Shown here one piece after another: positions 42,920-57,351 of a stretch of 64,000 nucleotides of DNA. The stretch is from Pseudoflavonifractor phocaeensis. Its GTDB lineage: Bacteria > Bacillota > Clostridia > Oscillospirales > Oscillospiraceae. Under the pieces are notes generated by a model. That model did no database searches. It had not been told where the DNA came from and worked only from the letters and a program-made list of their open reading frames with translations. The position numbers and the translations under genes were made by a program. The stretch's first letter is position 1. Every line of letters starts with the position of its first letter. The stretch covers positions 1 to 64,000 of the forward strand of contig NZ_JADYUM010000002.1 in NCBI RefSeq assembly GCF_021531815.1, written 5' to 3'.

Positions 42920-45046
42920 ATGAAGGTCATCAAACGAGACGGTACCATCGTGGATTACGACAGGAGCAAGATCGTCACCGCCATTGAAAAAGCAAACGCG
43001 GAGGTCCCCCAGGAGGACCGGCTGGCCCGGGACCGCATCGACGTCATCATCGACCGCATCGAGGGGATGAAGCGCCCCCGGATGCTGGTGGAGGACATCC
43101 AGGACCTGGTGGAGCAGGGACTGGTGGCGGAGAACAAGTTCCACCTGGCCAAGACCTATATCATCTACCGCTATAACCGGGCCCTGGTCCGGAAGGCCAA
43201 CACCACCGACGAGTCCATTCTTTCCCTGCTGCGCAACGAGAACCAGGAGTTGGCAGAGGAGAATTCCAATAAGAACACCATGATTGCCGCCACCCAGCGG
43301 GACTACATCGCCGGCGAGGTGAGCCGGGACCTGACCCGGCGCATCCTCCTGCCCGAAAAGATCTCCAAGGCCCACGACGAAGGCACCATCCACTTCCACG
43401 ACGCCGACTATTTCGTCCAGCCCATCTTCAACTGCTGCCTCATCAACATCGGGGACATGCTGGACAACGGCACCGTCATGAACGGCAAGCTCATCGAGTC
43501 TCCCAAGAGTTTTCAGGTGGCCTGCACCGTCATGACTCAGATCATCGCCTGCGTGGCCTCCAACCAGTACGGCGGCCAGTCGGTGGACCTGCGCCACCTG
43601 GGCAAGTATCTGCGCCGGAGCAAGGAAAAATTCCGCAAGCACATCGCCTATGAATGTGCCGGCCAGGCTGACGAGGCCACGGTGGAGCGGCTGGTCAACG
43701 ACCGTCTGCGGGACGAGCTGAAATCCGGGGTCCAGACCATACAGTATCAGATCAATACCCTCATGACCACCAACGGCCAGTCTCCTTTCGTCACCCTGTT
43801 CCTCAATCTCCAGGAGGACGACCCCTACCTGGAGGAGAACGCCATGATCGTGGAGGAGGTGCTGCGCCAGCGGCTGGAGGGCATCAAGAACGAGAAGGGC
43901 GTCTATATCACCCCCGCCTTCCCCAAGCTGGTCTACGTTCTGGACGAGCACAACTGCCTCAAGGGCGGCAAGTACGACTATATCACCGAGCTGGCCGTCA
44001 AGTGCTCCGCTAAGCGGATGTATCCCGACTATATCTCCGCCAAGAAGATGCGGGAGAATTACGAGGGCAACGTGTTCTCCCCCATGGGCTGCCGCTCCTT
44101 CCTGGCTCCCTGGAAGGATGAGAACGGCAACTACAAGTTCGAGGGCCGCTTCAACCAGGGCGTGGTCTCCCTGAACCTGCCCCAGATCGGTATCCTGGCC
44201 CGGGGGGATGAGGAGAAGTTCTGGGAGATCCTGGAGGAGCGCCTCCAGCTGTGCTTCGAGGCCCTGATGTGCCGCCACAACGCCCTGAAAAACGTGAAGT
44301 CCGACTCCAGCCCCATCCACTGGCAGTACGGCGCCATCGCCCGCCTGCCCAAGGGCGCCCCCATCGAGCCCCTGCTCTACGGCGGCTACTCCTCCATCTC
44401 TCTGGGCTATATCGGCCTGTATGAGGTGACCAAGCTGATGAAGGGCTGCTCCCACACCCAGCCCGAGGGCGCTGAGTTCGCGCTGAAGGTGATGAACCGC
44501 CTGCGCAAGGCCTGCGACGACTGGAAGAAGGAAACCAACATCGGCTTCGCCCTCTACGGCACCCCCGCCGAGTCCCTGTGCTACCGCTTCGCCCGCATCG
44601 ATAAAGAGCGCTTCGGCACCATTCCCGACGTCACGGACAAGGGCTACTATACCAACTCCTACCATGTGGATGTGCGGGAGCATATCGACGCCTTTGAGAA
44701 GTTCACCTTCGAGAGCCAGTTCCAGAAGATCTCCACCGGCGGCTGCATCTCCTATGTGGAGATCCCCAACATGCGCAACAATCTGGAGGCGCTGAAAGAG
44801 GTGGTCCGGTTCATCTACGACAACATCCAGTACGCTGAGTTCAATACCAAGAGCGACTACTGCCAGGTGTGCGGGTTCGACGGAGAGATCATCATCAACG
44901 ATGACAACCAGTGGGAGTGCCCCGCCTGCCACAACAAGGACCGCTCCAAGATGAACGTCACCCGCCGTACCTGCGGCTACCTGGGCGAGAATTACTGGAA
45001 CGTGGGCAAGACCAAGGAGATCAAGTCCCGGGTGCTGCACCTGTGA
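42920..45046 (+). CDS. nrdD: Anaerobic (class III) ribonucleoside-triphosphate reductase
   Basis: A 708-residue glycyl radical enzyme reducing NTPs to dNTPs. An ATP-cone regulates activity at the N-terminus (MKVIKRDGTIVDYDRSKIVT); the catalytic barrel includes IIACVASNQYGGQS; a zinc site (CQVCGF ... CPAC) precedes the glycyl radical loop RTCGYLGENYW (Gly ~686). This is the NrdD1-like form that uses formate as reductant. ATG follows AAGGAAGGAGATCATGCA. Its activase nrdG lies two genes downstream, after a PLP enzyme. An NrdR box precedes the promoter. Confidence 0.96.
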   Translation: MKVIKRDGTIVDYDRSKIVTAIEKANAEVPQEDRLARDRIDVIIDRIEGMKRPRMLVEDIQDLVEQGLVAENKFHLAKTYIIYRYNRALVRKANTTDESILSLLRNENQELAEENSNKNTMIAATQRDYIAGEVSRDLTRRILLPEKISKAHDEGTIHFHDADYFVQPIFNCCLINIGDMLDNGTVMNGKLIESPKSFQVACTVMTQIIACVASNQYGGQSVDLRHLGKYLRRSKEKFRKHIAYECAGQADEATVERLVNDRLRDELKSGVQTIQYQINTLMTTNGQSPFVTLFLNLQEDDPYLEENAMIVEEVLRQRLEGIKNEKGVYITPAFPKLVYVLDEHNCLKGGKYDYITELAVKCSAKRMYPDYISAKKMRENYEGNVFSPMGCRSFLAPWKDENGNYKFEGRFNQGVVSLNLPQIGILARGDEEKFWEILEERLQLCFEALMCRHNALKNVKSDSSPIHWQYGAIARLPKGAPIEPLLYGGYSSISLGYIGLYEVTKLMKGCSHTQPEGAEFALKVMNRLRKACDDWKKETNIGFALYGTPAESLCYRFARIDKERFGTIPDVTDKGYYTNSYHVDVREHIDAFEKFTFESQFQKISTGGCISYVEIPNMRNNLEALKEVVRFIYDNIQYAEFNTKSDYCQVCGFDGEIIINDDNQWECPACHNKDRSKMNVTRRTCGYLGENYWNVGKTKEIKSRVLHL

Positions 45047-45091
45047 GCGCCTCCCGGGCTGTGATAAAATAGAATGTAAGGAGCTGAGACG

Positions 45092-46282
45092 ATGAAATAC
45101 GATTTTGAAACGGTACAGCCCCGCCGGCATGTGGGGTCCAAGAAATGGGATGAGATGGAGCAGTACGGCGTGGACAGTCCTGACGTGATCCCCTTCTCCG
45201 TGGCGGATATGGAGTTTGTGCAGATCCCCGAGGTGCTGGAGGGGCTGAAAAGCTACATGGAGCGGTACCCCCTGGGCTACGCCAATCCCACCCCGGAATA
45301 TAAGGACGCCGTGTGCGGCTGGCAGAAATCCCAGCACGGCTGGGAGGTGAAGCCCGAAACGATTCTGTGCACGCCGGGCATCGTCAATGCCTTCCACGGC
45401 GCGGTCCAGACGTATACACAGCCCGGCGACGGCGTGCTGATGCTCAGCCCCACCTACTACCCTATGTACAACGCCGTCACGGCCAATGGCCGGGAACTGG
45501 TGGAGAGTTTCTTGGTCCGCAAGGGCAGCCGCTATGAGATCGACTTTGCCGATTTTGAGGCCAAGGCCGCCCGTCCCAATGTGAAGCTGATGATCCTGTG
45601 CAACCCCCAGAATCCCACGGGCCGGGTGTTTACCGAGGAAGAGTTGACCAAGATCGGCAATATCTGCCTGGAGCACGGTATTTTCGTCTGCTCCGACGAG
45701 ATTCACGGCGATATTATCATGCCCGGTTACCATCATATCCCCTTCGCTTCTCTCAATGATGCCTTTGCCAAGAACTGTATGGTGTGTGTGGCCGCCACCA
45801 AGACCTTCAATCTGGCGGGCCTCCAGACCTCGGCCATCATCATCCCCGACGAGGAGAGACGCAAGGCCTTCAAGGCCAACCAGATGAAGCTGGAGATCAA
45901 CCCCAAGTGCAACATTCTGGGCTATGAGGCCAGCCGGATCGTCTACACCCAGGGGCAGGAGTGGCACCGGCAGTGCATGGAAGTCATCATCCGCAACGCC
46001 AAGACGATCATCGATTTCTGCGCCAAGGAACTGCCGGAGATCTCCATCACCACGCTGGAGGGCACCTACCTGCTGTGGATGGACCTGAGCGCCTATGGCA
46101 TTGAATGCCGGGAACTGGCCGAGCTGCTGAAGAAGGAAGCCTGGCTGTTTATGGATGACGGCTACATCTTCGGCGAGGCGGGCGAGGGCTTCGAGCGCTG
46201 GAACCTGGCCTGCCCCACCCGCTACATCGAGGCGGCGCTGCCCCGGCTGAAAAAGACCCTGGAGGCTCACCGGAAGAGCTGA
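45092..46282 (+). CDS. PLP-dependent MalY/PatB-type C-S lyase / aminotransferase
   Basis: A 396-residue fold-type I PLP enzyme of the MalY/PatB group: MKYDFETVQPRRHVGSKKWD start, SVADMEFVQIPEV, NPQNPTGRVFTEEEL, and the PLP-lysine region AATKTFNLAGLQTSA. Such enzymes cleave cystathionine or cysteine conjugates. ATG follows GTAAGGAGCTGAGACG. It is placed between nrdD and nrdG on the same strand (45 bp after nrdD and 45 bp before nrdG), an unusual insertion into an anaerobic reductase operon. A link to sulfur supply is speculative. Confidence 0.88.
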   Translation: MKYDFETVQPRRHVGSKKWDEMEQYGVDSPDVIPFSVADMEFVQIPEVLEGLKSYMERYPLGYANPTPEYKDAVCGWQKSQHGWEVKPETILCTPGIVNAFHGAVQTYTQPGDGVLMLSPTYYPMYNAVTANGRELVESFLVRKGSRYEIDFADFEAKAARPNVKLMILCNPQNPTGRVFTEEELTKIGNICLEHGIFVCSDEIHGDIIMPGYHHIPFASLNDAFAKNCMVCVAATKTFNLAGLQTSAIIIPDEERRKAFKANQMKLEINPKCNILGYEASRIVYTQGQEWHRQCMEVIIRNAKTIIDFCAKELPEISITTLEGTYLLWMDLSAYGIECRELAELLKKEAWLFMDDGYIFGEAGEGFERWNLACPTRYIEAALPRLKKTLEAHRKS

Positions 46283-46327
46283 CCCCGGCGGAACATGGTC
46301 CCGCCGTACAAATGAGGAAGTGTTTCC

Positions 46328-46846
46328 ATGAATTACGCCGACATCCGGCCCATCGATGTGGCCAACGGCCCGGGGGTTCGGGTCTCCATCTTCGTCTCCG
46401 GCTGTACCCACCACTGCAAGGAGTGCTTCAACCCGGAGACCTGGGACTTTGACTACGGCCAACCCTTTGGAGAGGCGCAGATCCAGGAGATCTTGGGTCA
46501 CCTGTCCAAGTCCTATATCCATGGTCTGTCCATTCTGGGGGGAGAGCCATTTGAGCCCCAGAACCAGGGGGCAGTGCTGGAACTGGTCCGCCGGGTGCGG
46601 GAACGGTTCCCGGAGAAGGACGTCTGGTGCTACTCCGGTTACCTCTTTGAGGACTTGGCCGCCGGAAAGGTGGGGGCCCACAGCCGGACCTTGCTGGGCC
46701 TGCTGGACGTGTTGGTGGACGGCCCCTTTGTCCTGGAGCAGAAGGAACTGTCCCTCCGGTTCCGGGGATCGGCGAATCAGCGGCTCATCGACGTGCCCGC
46801 CTCATTGGGAGCGGGGCAGGTCCTGATTTGGGACAAACTGGAATAA
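46328..46846 (+). CDS. nrdG: Anaerobic ribonucleotide reductase activating protein
   Basis: A 172-residue radical SAM activase that creates the glycyl radical in NrdD. The cluster motif is CTHHCKECF (CxxxCxxC), followed by GGEPFEPQNQ. The compact length and RPIDVANGPGVRVSIFVSGC lead are typical of NrdG. It belongs to the nrdD-malY-nrdG unit, which ends in a strong hairpin. Confidence 0.94.
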   Translation: MNYADIRPIDVANGPGVRVSIFVSGCTHHCKECFNPETWDFDYGQPFGEAQIQEILGHLSKSYIHGLSILGGEPFEPQNQGAVLELVRRVRERFPEKDVWCYSGYLFEDLAAGKVGAHSRTLLGLLDVLVDGPFVLEQKELSLRFRGSANQRLIDVPASLGAGQVLIWDKLE

Positions 46847-53051: not shown

Positions 53052-53744
53052 ATGGACATCCACGGACTGCAAAAATTGACGCTGCTGGACTATCCCGGCA
53101 AGGTGGCCTGCACGGTGTTTCTGGGAGGCTGTGACTTCCGCTGTCCCTTCTGCCACAATGGGGAGCTGGTGGAGGGCCCCTTTCCGCCCCCGGAACTGGA
53201 CGACCAGGCCCTGCTGGCCTTCCTGCGCAAGCGCCGGGGCCTACTGGACGGGGTGTGCGTCACCGGAGGGGAACCCTTGCTCCGCCCGGATCTGCCGGAG
53301 CTGTTGGCGCAAATCAAAGAACTGGGCTTTTCCCTCAAGCTGGACACCAACGGGACCCACCCGGAGCGGCTGCGGCGGCTGGTGGAACAGGGCCTGGTGG
53401 ATTACGTGGCCATGGACGTGAAAAACAGTCCCGCCCGCTACGCCGAGACGGCGGGAGTGCCCGGGCTGGACCTTACCCCCATCTGGGACAGCGTGTCCTA
53501 CCTGCTGTCGGATGCGGTGGACTATGAGTTCCGCACCACGGTGGTGCGGGAGTTCCATGACGGGGAGTCCTTTCGGGCCATAGGAGAATGGCTGGCAGGG
53601 GCCAAACGGTACTTCCTCCAGTCCTTCGTGGACCGGGACACGGTGCTCCGGTCTGGGCTCCATCCGTGGGATGAGAGAACCATGGAGGACTTTCTGGCCC
53701 TGGTACAGTCGGATATCCCATCGGCCCGGCTGCGGGGACAATGA
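53052..53744 (+). CDS. Anaerobic ribonucleotide reductase activating protein, NrdG2-type
   Basis: A 230-residue radical SAM protein: MDIHGLQKLTLLDYPGKVAC, cluster CDFRCPFCHNGELV (CxxxCxxC), VTGGEPLL, KLDTNGTHP and VAMDVKNSP. It is the longer activase family often paired with NrdD proteins carrying different reductants. It precedes the second nrdD by 182 bp, separated by its NrdR box and promoter. It could also activate another glycyl radical enzyme. Confidence 0.88.
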   Translation: MDIHGLQKLTLLDYPGKVACTVFLGGCDFRCPFCHNGELVEGPFPPPELDDQALLAFLRKRRGLLDGVCVTGGEPLLRPDLPELLAQIKELGFSLKLDTNGTHPERLRRLVEQGLVDYVAMDVKNSPARYAETAGVPGLDLTPIWDSVSYLLSDAVDYEFRTTVVREFHDGESFRAIGEWLAGAKRYFLQSFVDRDTVLRSGLHPWDERTMEDFLALVQSDIPSARLRGQ

Positions 53745-53794
53745 GAAAACAGCGGGGCGGTCATTGGACCGCTTCGCTGAATTTTGAATGAGAC

Positions 53795-53836: not shown

Positions 53837-53865
53837 TTGACCATCGCTGGAGCGCGTGATATAGT
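53837..53865 (+). promoter_or_regulatory. Promoter of the second nrdD
   Basis: TTGACC (53837-53842), 17-bp spacer, TATAGT (53860-53865). Confidence 0.75.
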
Positions 53866-53926: not shown

Positions 53927-56314
53927 ATGTACCAGGTGACAAAGCGGGACGGCACCGCCGCCCAGTTCGAGATCGGAAAGATCAGCGCCGCCATCACCAA
54001 GGCTTTTGAGGCCCTGGGCAAACAGTACCACCCCAGCGTCATCGATATGCTGGCCCTGCGGGTGACCGCCGCCTTTGAACCCAAGGTGAAGGACGGATTT
54101 ATCGCCGTGGAGGACATTCAGGACAGCGTGGAGCAGGTGCTGTCTGAGGCGGGCTACGCCGACGTGGCCAAGGCCTACATCCTCTACCGCAAGCAGCGGG
54201 AGAAGGTGCGCAACGTCAACTCCACCCTGCTCAATTACAAGGACCTGGTGGATGACTACCTCCAGATCAACGACTGGCGGGTGAAGGAGAATTCCACGGT
54301 CACCTACTCGGTGGGCGGCCTGATCCTGTCCAACTCCGGGGCCATCACCGCCAATTACTGGCTCAGCGAGATCTACGACCAGGAGGTGGCCAACGCCCAC
54401 CGCAGCGCCGACATCCATATCCACGACCTGTCCATGCTCACCGGCTACTGCGCCGGCTGGTCCCTGAAGCAGCTCATCCAGGAGGGCCTGGGGGGCATCC
54501 CTGGGAAGATCACCTCCGCTCCCGCCAGCCACCTGTCCACCCTGTGCAACCAGATGGTCAATTTCCTGGGCATCATGCAGAACGAGTGGGCGGGGGCACA
54601 GGCTTTCTCCTCCTTTGACACCTACCTGGCTCCCTTTGTCAAGGTGGACCACCTGACCCAGAAGGAGGTCAAGCAGTGCATCCAGTCCTTCGTTTACGGG
54701 GTGAACACCCCCAGCCGCTGGGGCACCCAGGCCCCCTTCTCCAACATCACCCTGGACTGGACGGTGCCTAAAGACCTGGAGCACCTGCCCGCCATCGTGG
54801 GCGGCAAGGAGATGGACTTTACCTATGGGGACTGCAAGCAGGAGATGGACATGGTGAACAAGGCGTTCATCCAGATCATGATCGAGGGGGACGCCAACGG
54901 CCGGGGCTTCCAGTATCCCATTCCCACCTACTCCATCACCCGGGACTTTGACTGGTCGGAGACGGAGAACAACAAGCTGCTGTTCGAGATGACCGCCAAA
55001 TACGGTACCCCCTACTTCTCCAACTACATCAATTCGGACATGGAGCCCTCCGATGTGCGGTCCATGTGCTGCCGCCTGCGGCTGGACCTGCGGGAGCTGC
55101 GGAAAAAGTCCGGCGGCTTCTTCGGCTCCGGCGAGTCCACGGGCAGCGTGGGAGTGGTCACCATCAACCTGCCCCGCATCGCCTACCTGGCGGAGGACGA
55201 GGCCGACTTTTACCGGCGGCTGGACAAGCTGATGGACATTGCCGCCCGGTCCCTGAAGACCAAGCGCACCGTGATCACCAAGCTGCTGGACGCGGGGCTC
55301 TACCCCTACACCAAGCGGTACCTGGGCACCTTTGCCAACCACTTCTCCACCATCGGGCTCATCGGCATGAACGAGGCCGGCCTCAACGCCAAGTGGCTCC
55401 GGGCCGATCTGACCCACGGGGAGACCCAGGAGTTCGCCAAAAACGTGCTGAACCACATGCGGGAGCGGCTGAGCGACTATCAGGAGGCGTACGGCGACCT
55501 GTACAACCTGGAGGCCACCCCCGCCGAGTCCACCACCTACCGCTTCGCCAAGCACGACAAGGAACAGTTCCCCGACATCATCACCGCCAACGAGCATGGC
55601 ACTCCCTATTACACCAACTCCTCCCACCTGCCTGTAGGGTATACCGAGGACATCTTCTCCGCCCTGGACGTCCAGGACGAGCTCCAGACCCTGTACACCT
55701 CGGGCACCGTGTTCCACGCCTTCCTGGGGGAGAAGCTGCCCGACTGGAAGGCTGCCGCCGCCCTGGTGCGGAAGATCGCGGAGAACTACAAGCTGCCCTA
55801 TTATACCCTCTCTCCCACCTACTCGGTGTGCGCCGACCACGGCTACCTCATCGGGGAGCAGCACACCTGCCCCCACTGCGGCCGGGCCACCGAGGTCTAC
55901 AGCCGTATTACCGGCTACTACCGGCCCATCCAGAACTGGAACGACGGCAAGGCACAGGAGTTCCAGGACCGGAAGGTCTATGACATCGGCCGCTCCCGCC
56001 TGCGCCGGGCCGGGATCGCCGGGTCCCTGGTGACGGCGGAGGCCCAGGAGGCGGAACGAGCTTCCGACGGAGAACTGCTGCTCTTCGCCACCCGCACCTG
56101 CCCCAACTGTGCCCAGGCGGAGCGGCTGCTGGAGGAGGCGGGCCTCCCCTTCCGGAAGGTGCTGGCCGAGGAGAACCCGGACCTCGCCGTCCGCTACGGC
56201 GTCCGTCAGGCCCCAACGCTGGTTATGGAAGATGGACAGGCCCCTGTGAAGGTGGTAGGCCTGGGGAACGTCCGGAAATTCATCCAGGACAACCGCCCCG
56301 CGGAAGTGGGATAA
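53927..56314 (+). CDS. nrdD: Class III ribonucleoside-triphosphate reductase with fused C-terminal redoxin domain
   Basis: A 795-residue enzyme. ATP-cone (~1-95, TKRDGTAAQFEIGKISAAIT), catalytic barrel with IHIHDLSMLTGYCAGWSLKQ and NLPRIAYLAEDEADF, a CPHC zinc motif, then the glycyl radical loop VYSRITGYYRPIQNW (Gly ~663). Residues ~716-795 form a thioredoxin/glutaredoxin-like domain with CPNC (725-728) and APTLVMEDG (cis-Pro). It resembles redoxin-dependent class III subtypes rather than formate users. A TrxB gene follows. ATG follows GGAGGGATCAGCC. Confidence 0.93.
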   Translation: MYQVTKRDGTAAQFEIGKISAAITKAFEALGKQYHPSVIDMLALRVTAAFEPKVKDGFIAVEDIQDSVEQVLSEAGYADVAKAYILYRKQREKVRNVNSTLLNYKDLVDDYLQINDWRVKENSTVTYSVGGLILSNSGAITANYWLSEIYDQEVANAHRSADIHIHDLSMLTGYCAGWSLKQLIQEGLGGIPGKITSAPASHLSTLCNQMVNFLGIMQNEWAGAQAFSSFDTYLAPFVKVDHLTQKEVKQCIQSFVYGVNTPSRWGTQAPFSNITLDWTVPKDLEHLPAIVGGKEMDFTYGDCKQEMDMVNKAFIQIMIEGDANGRGFQYPIPTYSITRDFDWSETENNKLLFEMTAKYGTPYFSNYINSDMEPSDVRSMCCRLRLDLRELRKKSGGFFGSGESTGSVGVVTINLPRIAYLAEDEADFYRRLDKLMDIAARSLKTKRTVITKLLDAGLYPYTKRYLGTFANHFSTIGLIGMNEAGLNAKWLRADLTHGETQEFAKNVLNHMRERLSDYQEAYGDLYNLEATPAESTTYRFAKHDKEQFPDIITANEHGTPYYTNSSHLPVGYTEDIFSALDVQDELQTLYTSGTVFHAFLGEKLPDWKAAAALVRKIAENYKLPYYTLSPTYSVCADHGYLIGEQHTCPHCGRATEVYSRITGYYRPIQNWNDGKAQEFQDRKVYDIGRSRLRRAGIAGSLVTAEAQEAERASDGELLLFATRTCPNCAQAERLLEEAGLPFRKVLAEENPDLAVRYGVRQAPTLVMEDGQAPVKVVGLGNVRKFIQDNRPAEVG

Positions 56315-56323
56315 CCCTGGCTC

Positions 56324-56352
56324 TTGCCAAGGGGAATAAATCGAAGTACAAT
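56324..56352 (+). promoter_or_regulatory. Promoter of trxB
   Basis: TTGCCA (56324-56329), 17-bp spacer, TACAAT (56347-56352). Transcription would begin inside the hairpin at 56355-56382. Confidence 0.6.
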
Positions 56353-56354
56353 GA

Positions 56355-56386
56355 AACCGGCCCCGGTTGTCTGGGGCCGGTTCTTT
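56355..56386 (+). terminator. Terminator after the second nrdD
   Basis: AACCGGCCCC / GGGGCCGGTT stem with 8-nt loop and CTTTCT. Confidence 0.65.
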
Positions 56387-56424
56387 CTCATCTGACACAC
56401 AGGACAAACAGAAGGGGTGTTTTT

Positions 56425-57351
56425 ATGTATGACGTGATCGTAGTGGGGGGAGGCCCCGCGGGCCTGACCGCCGCCCTGTACGCCGCCCGGGCTGGCCAGG
56501 ATGTGCTGGTGCTGGAGGGGGAGACCACCGGAGGCCAGATCAACTTCTCCCCTCTGGTGGACAACTATCCCGGGCTGCCCAGCATGAGTGGGGCCCAGTT
56601 TGCCCAGACCCTGACCCAGCAGGCGCTGGACCAGGGGGTTCATATCCGCAATGAGGCTGTGACCTTCCTGCGCACCCAGGGGGACCGGGTGGAGCTGACC
56701 ACCGACAGGGGCCGTTACACCGGGTTGGCTCTGGTGCTGGCCACCGGAGTCACCCACCGGAAGCTGGGCCTGGAGGGAGAGGACCAGCTGGTGGGCATGG
56801 GAGTGTCCTACTGCGCCGTCTGTGACGGGGCCTTCTACCAGGATCGCCCCGTGGCCGTGGTGGGGGGCGGGGATACCGCCCTTCAGGAGGCATTGTTCCT
56901 CTCTGCCCGCTGTTCCAAGGTGACGGTCATCCACCGCCGGGACCTGTTCCGGGGGGAGAACGGCATGGTCCGGCAGCTGCGGGAGCGGGACAACGTGGAA
57001 TTTCTGCTGAGCCACCGGGTGGATAGCCTGCTCCGGAATGAGGAAGGCCTCACCGGTCTGGTGCTGGCCGATTTGAAGACCGCCCAGCGGAAGGAACTGG
57101 CGGTGGACGGCCTGTTCATCGCTGTGGGCCAGGAGCCGCGGAACGAGATCTTTGCCAACCTGGTGATGACCGACGACAGGGGCTATTTCCTGGCGGGGGA
57201 GGACTGCGGTACCAGTCTGCCCGGAGTTTTTGCCGCCGGGGACTGCCGGGTGAAGCAGGTGCGCCAGCTTACCACTGCCGTGGGGGACGGCGCGGTAGCC
57301 GGACTGGCTGCCAGCGCCTACGCCGACGCCCACCGGAACTGTGGGACGTAA
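56425..57351 (+). CDS. trxB: Thioredoxin reductase (NADPH)
   Basis: A 308-residue flavoprotein: FAD motif VVGGGPAGLTAALYAAR, disulfide CAVC (in SYCAVCDGAFY), NADPH motif VVGGGDTALQEALFL followed by VTVIHRRDLFRGE, and C-terminal PGVFAAGDCRVKQVRQLTTA. The HRRxxxR pattern indicates NADPH preference. It follows the redoxin-fused NrdD by 110 bp and could reduce that redoxin domain. ATG 56425 follows AAGGGGTG. Confidence 0.94.
   Translation: MYDVIVVGGGPAGLTAALYAARAGQDVLVLEGETTGGQINFSPLVDNYPGLPSMSGAQFAQTLTQQALDQGVHIRNEAVTFLRTQGDRVELTTDRGRYTGLALVLATGVTHRKLGLEGEDQLVGMGVSYCAVCDGAFYQDRPVAVVGGGDTALQEALFLSARCSKVTVIHRRDLFRGENGMVRQLRERDNVEFLLSHRVDSLLRNEEGLTGLVLADLKTAQRKELAVDGLFIAVGQEPRNEIFANLVMTDDRGYFLAGEDCGTSLPGVFAAGDCRVKQVRQLTTAVGDGAVAGLAASAYADAHRNCGT

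Follow-up and report, generated by a model that had tools for sequence, protein, structure and literature searches.

One locus of Pseudoflavonifractor phocaeensis bears on the question of how a protein reductant reaches the buried active-site disulphide of a class III ribonucleotide reductase (RNR), an oxygen-sensitive enzyme that produces DNA precursors. The locus lies in a window of 64,000 nt (positions 1 to 64,000 of contig NZ_JADYUM010000002.1, assembly GCF_021531815.1), the whole stretch of DNA analysed, and comprises nrdD, the second of two class III RNR genes in the window, and trxB, a gene for thioredoxin reductase. A first-pass annotation had claimed that this NrdD ends in a redoxin-like domain with a CPNC pair (residues 725-728) and an APTLV motif, that trxB follows, and that the fusion would make a self-contained NADPH-TrxB-redoxin-NrdD chain. 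We find that the built-in redoxin is real, is wider than this single locus and marks one clade of class III RNRs. On the sequence features described below, the proposed electron chain is likely.

Pfam, AlphaFold2 and Foldseek all bear out the C-terminal domain, and the following trxB is present with a CAVC pair. When the whole NrdD is searched, a glutaredoxin match (PF00462) falls at residues 718-754 (28.1 bits against a cut-off of 22.9, E 2.3e-6), and the isolated 86-residue C-terminal segment scores 29.0 bits. The same match recurs with an E-value of 0.01 or better in 56 of 56 aligned members (the window copy and 55 of the best 80 related loci), of which 53 also match TIGR02194 (NrdH). The window redoxin stays below the cut-offs for NrdH proper (16.6 versus 85.75 bits) and thioredoxin proper (TIGR01068, 21.9 versus 96.8 bits), and by sequence is best described as NrdH/glutaredoxin-like. 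AlphaFold2 predicts the order b1-a1-b2-a2-b3-b4-a3 with a mean predicted local distance difference test score (pLDDT) of 89; full thioredoxins have an extra N-terminal strand and helix that are absent from this model. The top Foldseek matches in the Protein Data Bank (PDB) are thioredoxins (E 2e-5, template modelling score by query 0.59-0.74 among the matches listed). As modelled, the segment has the features of the glutaredoxin/thioredoxin superfamily, namely a CxxC that starts helix 1, a cis-proline and the fold.

The remainder of the protein has the sequence features of a class III RNR: an NRDD barrel, a glycyl-radical loop and a radical-SAM activase partner. Residues 1-687 match PRK08270 over nearly all of its 684 model positions, and the redoxin is therefore an extra part beyond this NCBIfam family model. 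The Pfam Gly_radical model matched the other NrdD of the window and not the fused one, in which RITGYYRP, a motif of the NrdD family, is the predicted glycyl-radical motif. In an alignment of 66 full-length copies (the window and 65 of the best 80 related loci), C175, C381, C382, G663, C725, P726, C728 and P763 are invariant. So are F399, at the finger-loop tip in GGFFGSGES, and E483, a candidate counterpart of the active-site Glu438 reported for NrdD2. The third active-site cysteine of NrdD2 (Wei 2014) is present here, with C381 beside C382 in addition to C175. By motif the fused NrdD fits NrdDh4 as defined by Aurelius (2015), having MCCR at 380 and Phe at the finger-loop tip, although the positional homology of this Phe is unsure, as Aurelius (2015) itself notes for groups h2 and h3. 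MCCR does not single out h4, since almost every redoxin-free relative with an LFGxxP loop that was read has it too.

We surveyed NrdD proteins of the PRK08270 family to establish how widely the architecture is shared. Genomes with an NrdD of this type number 129 of 393 in the class (E 1e-200) and 142 of 398 in the phylum (E 1e-150; this sample overlaps that of the class), and 20 of 60 relatives gave a match above the cut-off. There are at least 591 confirmed relatives, and the best 80 are all fused; as these were ranked by their similarity to fused queries, they are a biased sample. From the class sample 30 loci and 100 fetched regions were read, and from the phylum sample 19 new loci (three fused) and 40 regions, long frames first; given this selected reading of loci, pooled copy counts are not frequencies. 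Copies of at least 500 aa were kept if the C-terminal end was present, some of them without an N-terminus. Loci were left out when the copy was cut, shorter than 500 aa, fragmentary or broken, or came from a phage record (L021, L023, L024, L231, L274, L275, L276, L278 and L288); L277, which gave no row that could be used, and one duplicate were dropped as well.

Within the resulting 283 distinct copies, window included, the redoxin is present in 167 and absent from 116, which rules out a one-off or misassembled fusion. Both redoxin cysteines are kept in all 167 fused copies, as CPNC (152), CPKC (7), CVNC (3), CAKC (3) or CPQC (2). The first-pass annotation thus withstands two of the three checks that it set for itself, namely a redoxin score for the segment and conservation of its Cys pair. 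In L019, about 18 residues that end in CPNW recur, now with CPNC, where the redoxin begins. The two kinds of NrdD differ elsewhere as well. The finger loop reads GSGE[SN]TGS in 166 fused and six bare copies and LFG[AS]xP in 109 bare and no fused copies, the remaining two being GAGESTGS (fused) and LFGSGDSTGS (bare). NrdG2 is encoded upstream of 129 of the 167 fused copies, with none seen for 38, some of which have little flank; for the 116 bare copies it lies downstream in 101 and upstream in four, and was not seen in 11.

A FastTree phylogeny of 276 distinct cores requires three changes between the fused and bare states. All 164 fused rows fall in one clade of 170 members (local support 100) together with six bare ones. 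Since the deepest branches of this clade are fused and its bare members form two nested groups, we read one gain and two losses, although the deciding inner branches are partly at support 73-85 only and the starred branches force just two changes. This tree has a long bare branch next to the fused clade; a repeat without eight long rows again gave three changes and a clade support of 100, with some inner branches at support 33-54.

A redoxin family profile, which includes the window and gives 106 bits on its domain, picks up structurally characterized glutaredoxin-like proteins, NrdH and thioredoxins. In the 393 genomes, the profile scores 70 bits or more on frames of 409-862 aa and on a single frame of 122 aa, which lies close to the end of a contig in a genome with a cut nrdD. 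Three shorter redoxin frames that were inspected (L274-L276) are NrdD pieces. No close free-standing relative was found in these genomes, where all other profile matches score 44.5 bits or less. The lone matching phage record (L278, MT835493.1, named Bacteriophage sp.), whose nrdD has the redoxin, carries nrdG2-nrdD-trxB by an integrase-like gene; it is apparently bacterial DNA that flanks a prophage, and we rejected a phage cargo gene as an explanation. L274 (G138:C1:526000-538000) holds another nrdD region, this one broken, some 16 kb away from the intact fused nrdD, and its last frame keeps the redoxin. Among redoxin-free NrdDs, two carry intein-like inserts of 401 aa (L289, residues 384-784) and 372 aa (L290, residues 393-764) that start with Cys, end in THN and sit exactly between the M and CC of MCCR. 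Long or split nrdD frames likewise occur in G500, G508, G651, G628, G605, G671 and G813, the last of which (L288) has an uninterrupted MCCR.

The pairing of the redoxin with trxB could also be surveyed. We scored trxB as adjacent when it starts less than 600 nt downstream on the same strand, measured from its probable start codon, and counted only loci with room of over 1000 nt. By this rule, trxB directly follows 89 of 154 fused loci, the window among them, and none of 110 bare loci. The Fisher p of 3e-28 ignores relatedness and, as trxB adjacency follows the clade, overstates the association. The distance has a median of 31 nt and is no more than 30 nt in 44 of the 89; eight further fused copies have a trxB 870-1570 nt downstream. 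On the tree without the eight long rows, adjacency changes at least 21 times, and no bare copy has it. The trxB pairing that the first-pass annotation noted is therefore specific to fused loci, but it is common rather than obligatory, and 'self-contained' is too strong a word for the family.

How, then, might the fusion work? NrdG2-type activases install the glycyl radical of their reductase, and here NrdG2 would generate it at G663. Each turnover would leave a disulphide among C175, C381 and C382. The redoxin, carried on a linker of about 30 residues (median 33 residues from motif to profile borders in 173 fused frames), could then swing in and reduce this disulphide through CPNC, in its own subunit (cis) or in the partner subunit, and in this genome the neighbouring TrxB would reduce the redoxin with NADPH. 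In the predicted model, the low pLDDT of the linker suits a swinging domain. The analysis shows the domain, its predicted fold, cysteine conservation, the clade and the trxB pairing, whereas every electron-transfer step of this redoxin/TrxB chain is inferred. The Thermotoga maritima NrdD required an extract component larger than 10 kDa, and its activity was lost when either cysteine in SCCR was mutated (PMC4493059). Published work on the subclass has both CC-motif cysteines as indispensable and a protein as the reductant; most simply, the tethered redoxin would be this protein. We thus regard it as probable that this is an NrdDh-type class III RNR with its own reductant, in which the tethered redoxin reduces the active-site disulphide and TrxB recharges the redoxin.

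Several observations weigh against this reading. The remaining 65 of the 154 fused loci have no adjacent trxB, and in the window itself a hairpin and a promoter-like site separate nrdD from trxB (gap 110 nt). With an earlier, stricter trxB rule, the 276-core tree gave only two or three independent contrasts between fused and bare copies, which is too few for a test and leaves trxB presence confounded with clade. The six bare clade members have neither an adjacent trxB nor a redoxin-profile match beside nrdD, and so some NrdDs of the clade manage without the redoxin. A free redoxin encoded next door was considered as a replacement in these six loci and rejected on the same grounds; one of them, L168, has two closely spaced cysteines at its very C-terminus (SCTLC), and a weak profile match (27.7 bits) was seen in one other bare locus, L177. 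E. coli thioredoxin was no substitute for the extract with T. maritima NrdD (PMC4493059). Finally, the full-length AlphaFold2 model (pLDDT 75, with residues 168-178 and 379-386 below 50) is too weak for docking of the redoxin, and pyruvate formate-lyase (PFL), a possible source of formate, is encoded in a good share of fused genomes, as described below.

The alternative that survives best is that the redoxin does reduce NrdD but is itself mostly recharged by something else, be it a free thioredoxin, a thiol of low molecular weight or a TrxB of the ferredoxin type, with the neighbouring trxB as one supplier among several. In addition to the loci that lack an adjacent trxB, the TrxB motifs bear on this point. 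GGGxxAxxE and HRRxxxR are given as the NADPH motifs of thioredoxin reductase in PMC5627308. The window TrxB has both, as GGGDTALQE and HRRDLFR, in addition to CxxC, and by sequence is of the NADPH type. It falls short of the TIGR01292 equivalog cut-off (322.2 versus 343.45 bits). Across the 89 adjacent TrxBs, however, HRRxxxR occurs in only 23, the others reading as a Q-type (58), TxFDKFF (7) or HCLDNLQ (1) at this position. NADPH, the donor named in the first-pass annotation, is thus supported by motif for the window TrxB and a minority of the others, and the electron donor may vary between lineages. The genome also encodes a second TrxB (L242, G000:C43:15393-16549) that lacks the NADPH motifs, may be a ferredoxin-type reductase, and is directly followed by a free TrxA. 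Against this alternative, adjacent trxB genes occur only with the fused redoxin, and the window TrxB combines both NADPH motifs with the absence of a TrxA alongside. We consider the alternative unlikely. In favour of the main reading, the only PF00085 matches in the genome are the NrdD redoxin and the TrxA by the second TrxB.

A second possibility is that formate stays the reductant, and that the redoxin has an auxiliary task, such as keeping NrdG2 or the catalytic cysteines in the reduced state, redox sensing or help after exposure to air. The six redoxin-free clade members speak for it, as does the E. coli-type NrdD that this genome retains; its two NrdDs both lie within the window. To assess formate supply and other RNRs, 50 fused genomes with a listed completeness of at least 95% were hand-picked, this genome included (qualifying genomes not taken include G087, G149, G259, G352, G397 and G438); most are draft assemblies, in which absences are no proof. 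PFL, the one formate source searched for, is present in 23 of the 50, which also favours a role for formate. On the other side, MCCR supplies an extra Cys that is absent from the MGCR of the E. coli-type enzyme, and T. maritima NrdD, of the same subclass, showed no activity with formate in initial trials (PMC4493059). No match to a class I or II RNR was found in 44 of the 50 genomes, and the fused NrdD is the sole RNR found in 25, where it should therefore be active; 18 of these 25 gave no match to PFL. This genome likewise gave no match to a class I or II RNR or to a PFL-like protein. We judge a formate-driven enzyme with an accessory redoxin to be improbable.

That the redoxin is an inert or decaying fusion without a redox role, as the variable linker and the two losses on the best trees might suggest, is hardly credible beside the retention of both Cys in every fused copy and an invariant cis-proline in 66, in a domain of only 49% mean column identity.

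The features of the locus are listed below. A hairpin (53750-53779) followed by a promoter-like site also precedes nrdD and resembles the pair in the nrdD-trxB gap. The second class III system (42920-46846) lies about 7 kb before the fused nrdD and has an NrdG matching TIGR02491; its nrdD and nrdG are separated by an aminotransferase-like gene.

Features of the class III RNR loci, in window coordinates (residue numbers refer to the encoded protein)
Feature	Position	Strand	Basis
nrdD, class III RNR with C-terminal redoxin, 795 aa	53927..56314	+	ATG and stop checked; PRK08270 1147.5 bits, PF13597 639.5 bits
ATP-cone, residues 3-92	53933..54202	+	PF03477 80.7 bits
NRDD catalytic barrel and glycyl-radical region, residues 121-685	54287..55981	+	PF13597 639.5 bits, cut-off 26.2
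MCCR motif, residues 380-383 (C381, C382)	55064..55075	+	same in all 66 full-length copies
Predicted zinc-ribbon residues C635, H638, C648, C651	55829..55879	+	translation; three Cys invariant, H638 nearly so
G663, predicted glycyl-radical residue in RITGYYRP	55913..55915	+	invariant in 66 copies
Variable linker, probably flexible, residues 686-714	55982..56068	+	pLDDT <50 at 697-714
C-terminal redoxin domain, residues 715-790 (about 76 residues)	56069..56296	+	PF00462, AlphaFold2, family profile
CPNC redox pair, residues 725-728	56099..56110	+	both Cys kept in 167/167 fused copies
P763, cis-proline position, in APTLV	56213..56215	+	invariant in 66 copies
Promoter-like site and 12-bp hairpin, nrdD-trxB gap (site 56324-56352, hairpin 56355-56382)	56324..56382	+	consensus matches only
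trxB, thioredoxin reductase, 308 aa; CAVC 130-133, GGGDTALQE at 147, HRRDLFR at 170	56425..57351	+	motifs, TIGR01292
Promoter-like site TTGACC-17-TATAGT, 61 nt 5' of nrdD ATG	53837..53865	+	consensus match only
NrdG2-type radical-SAM activase of class III RNR	53052..53744	+	TIGR02495 207.5 bits, cut-off 131.15; PF04055
Other NrdD, E. coli-type (PRK09263), MGCR at residue 389	42920..45046		no redoxin match (Pfam)

With a tethered redoxin, the partner of the reductase is fixed, and kinetic and structural studies gain a system with a one-to-one ratio. The redoxin is also a candidate partner for thioredoxin reductases that lack a neighbouring thioredoxin gene, and the fused NrdD marks the only route to deoxyribonucleoside triphosphates found in a number of anaerobes. 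More broadly, we lean towards a history in which one class III RNR lineage, mostly of Clostridia, acquired a C-terminal electron-delivery domain by a single fusion, as an anaerobic counterpart of the class I and II cysteine tail. The lineage would have changed its finger loop and recruited thioredoxin reductases of differing donors, and the enzyme would be the only source of DNA precursors in many of these bacteria.

Thioredoxin-using class III RNRs, the ferredoxin-linked Methanosarcina barkeri enzyme and fusions of glutaredoxin (Grx) to RNRs are already in print; for the redoxin-fused clade, its trxB neighbour and its sole-RNR status, our full-text searches of an open-licence collection returned no description. 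In classes I and II, a tethered C-terminal dithiol likewise brings electrons to the active site, but it is a short mobile tail there and a whole folded redoxin here. The M. barkeri system also pairs a class III RNR with a dedicated disulphide reductase: in work of Wei from 2015, a ferredoxin disulphide reductase reportedly feeds the enzyme. The system is archaeal and ferredoxin-linked, uses a separate NrdH redoxin and is not known to have a fused one. PMC4390871 describes class III RNRs as having no C-terminal cysteine relay like that of the other two classes. For fusions, PMC6187632 lists one NrdD-Grx fusion in 2018 and describes a Grx fused to class I NrdB that acts as RNR reductant. This NrdB-Grx, of Facklamia ignava, resembles the present case in having a redoxin on an RNR chain that acts there as its reductant, but its Grx sits at the N-terminus of the radical subunit of a class I enzyme and runs with glutathione.

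The closest enzymes are of the NrdDh type. Neisseria bacilliformis NrdD (NrdDh3, NrdD2) shares the double-Cys motif and a protein reductant, and can use thioredoxin, as given in PMC4493059 and PMC4390871; its thioredoxin is separate, whereas the redoxin here is part of NrdD. T. maritima NrdD (NrdDh1; PDB 4coi, 4u3e) shares the double-Cys motif, the C-H-C-C zinc ligands and the need for a protein reductant (PMC4493059). It differs in having SCCR instead of MCCR, Ile instead of Phe at the finger loop, and a zinc spacing of CxxxHx6CxxC compared with CxxHx9CxxC in the window NrdD, and its chain of 651 residues ends at the glycyl-radical region, where the window NrdD continues into its redoxin.

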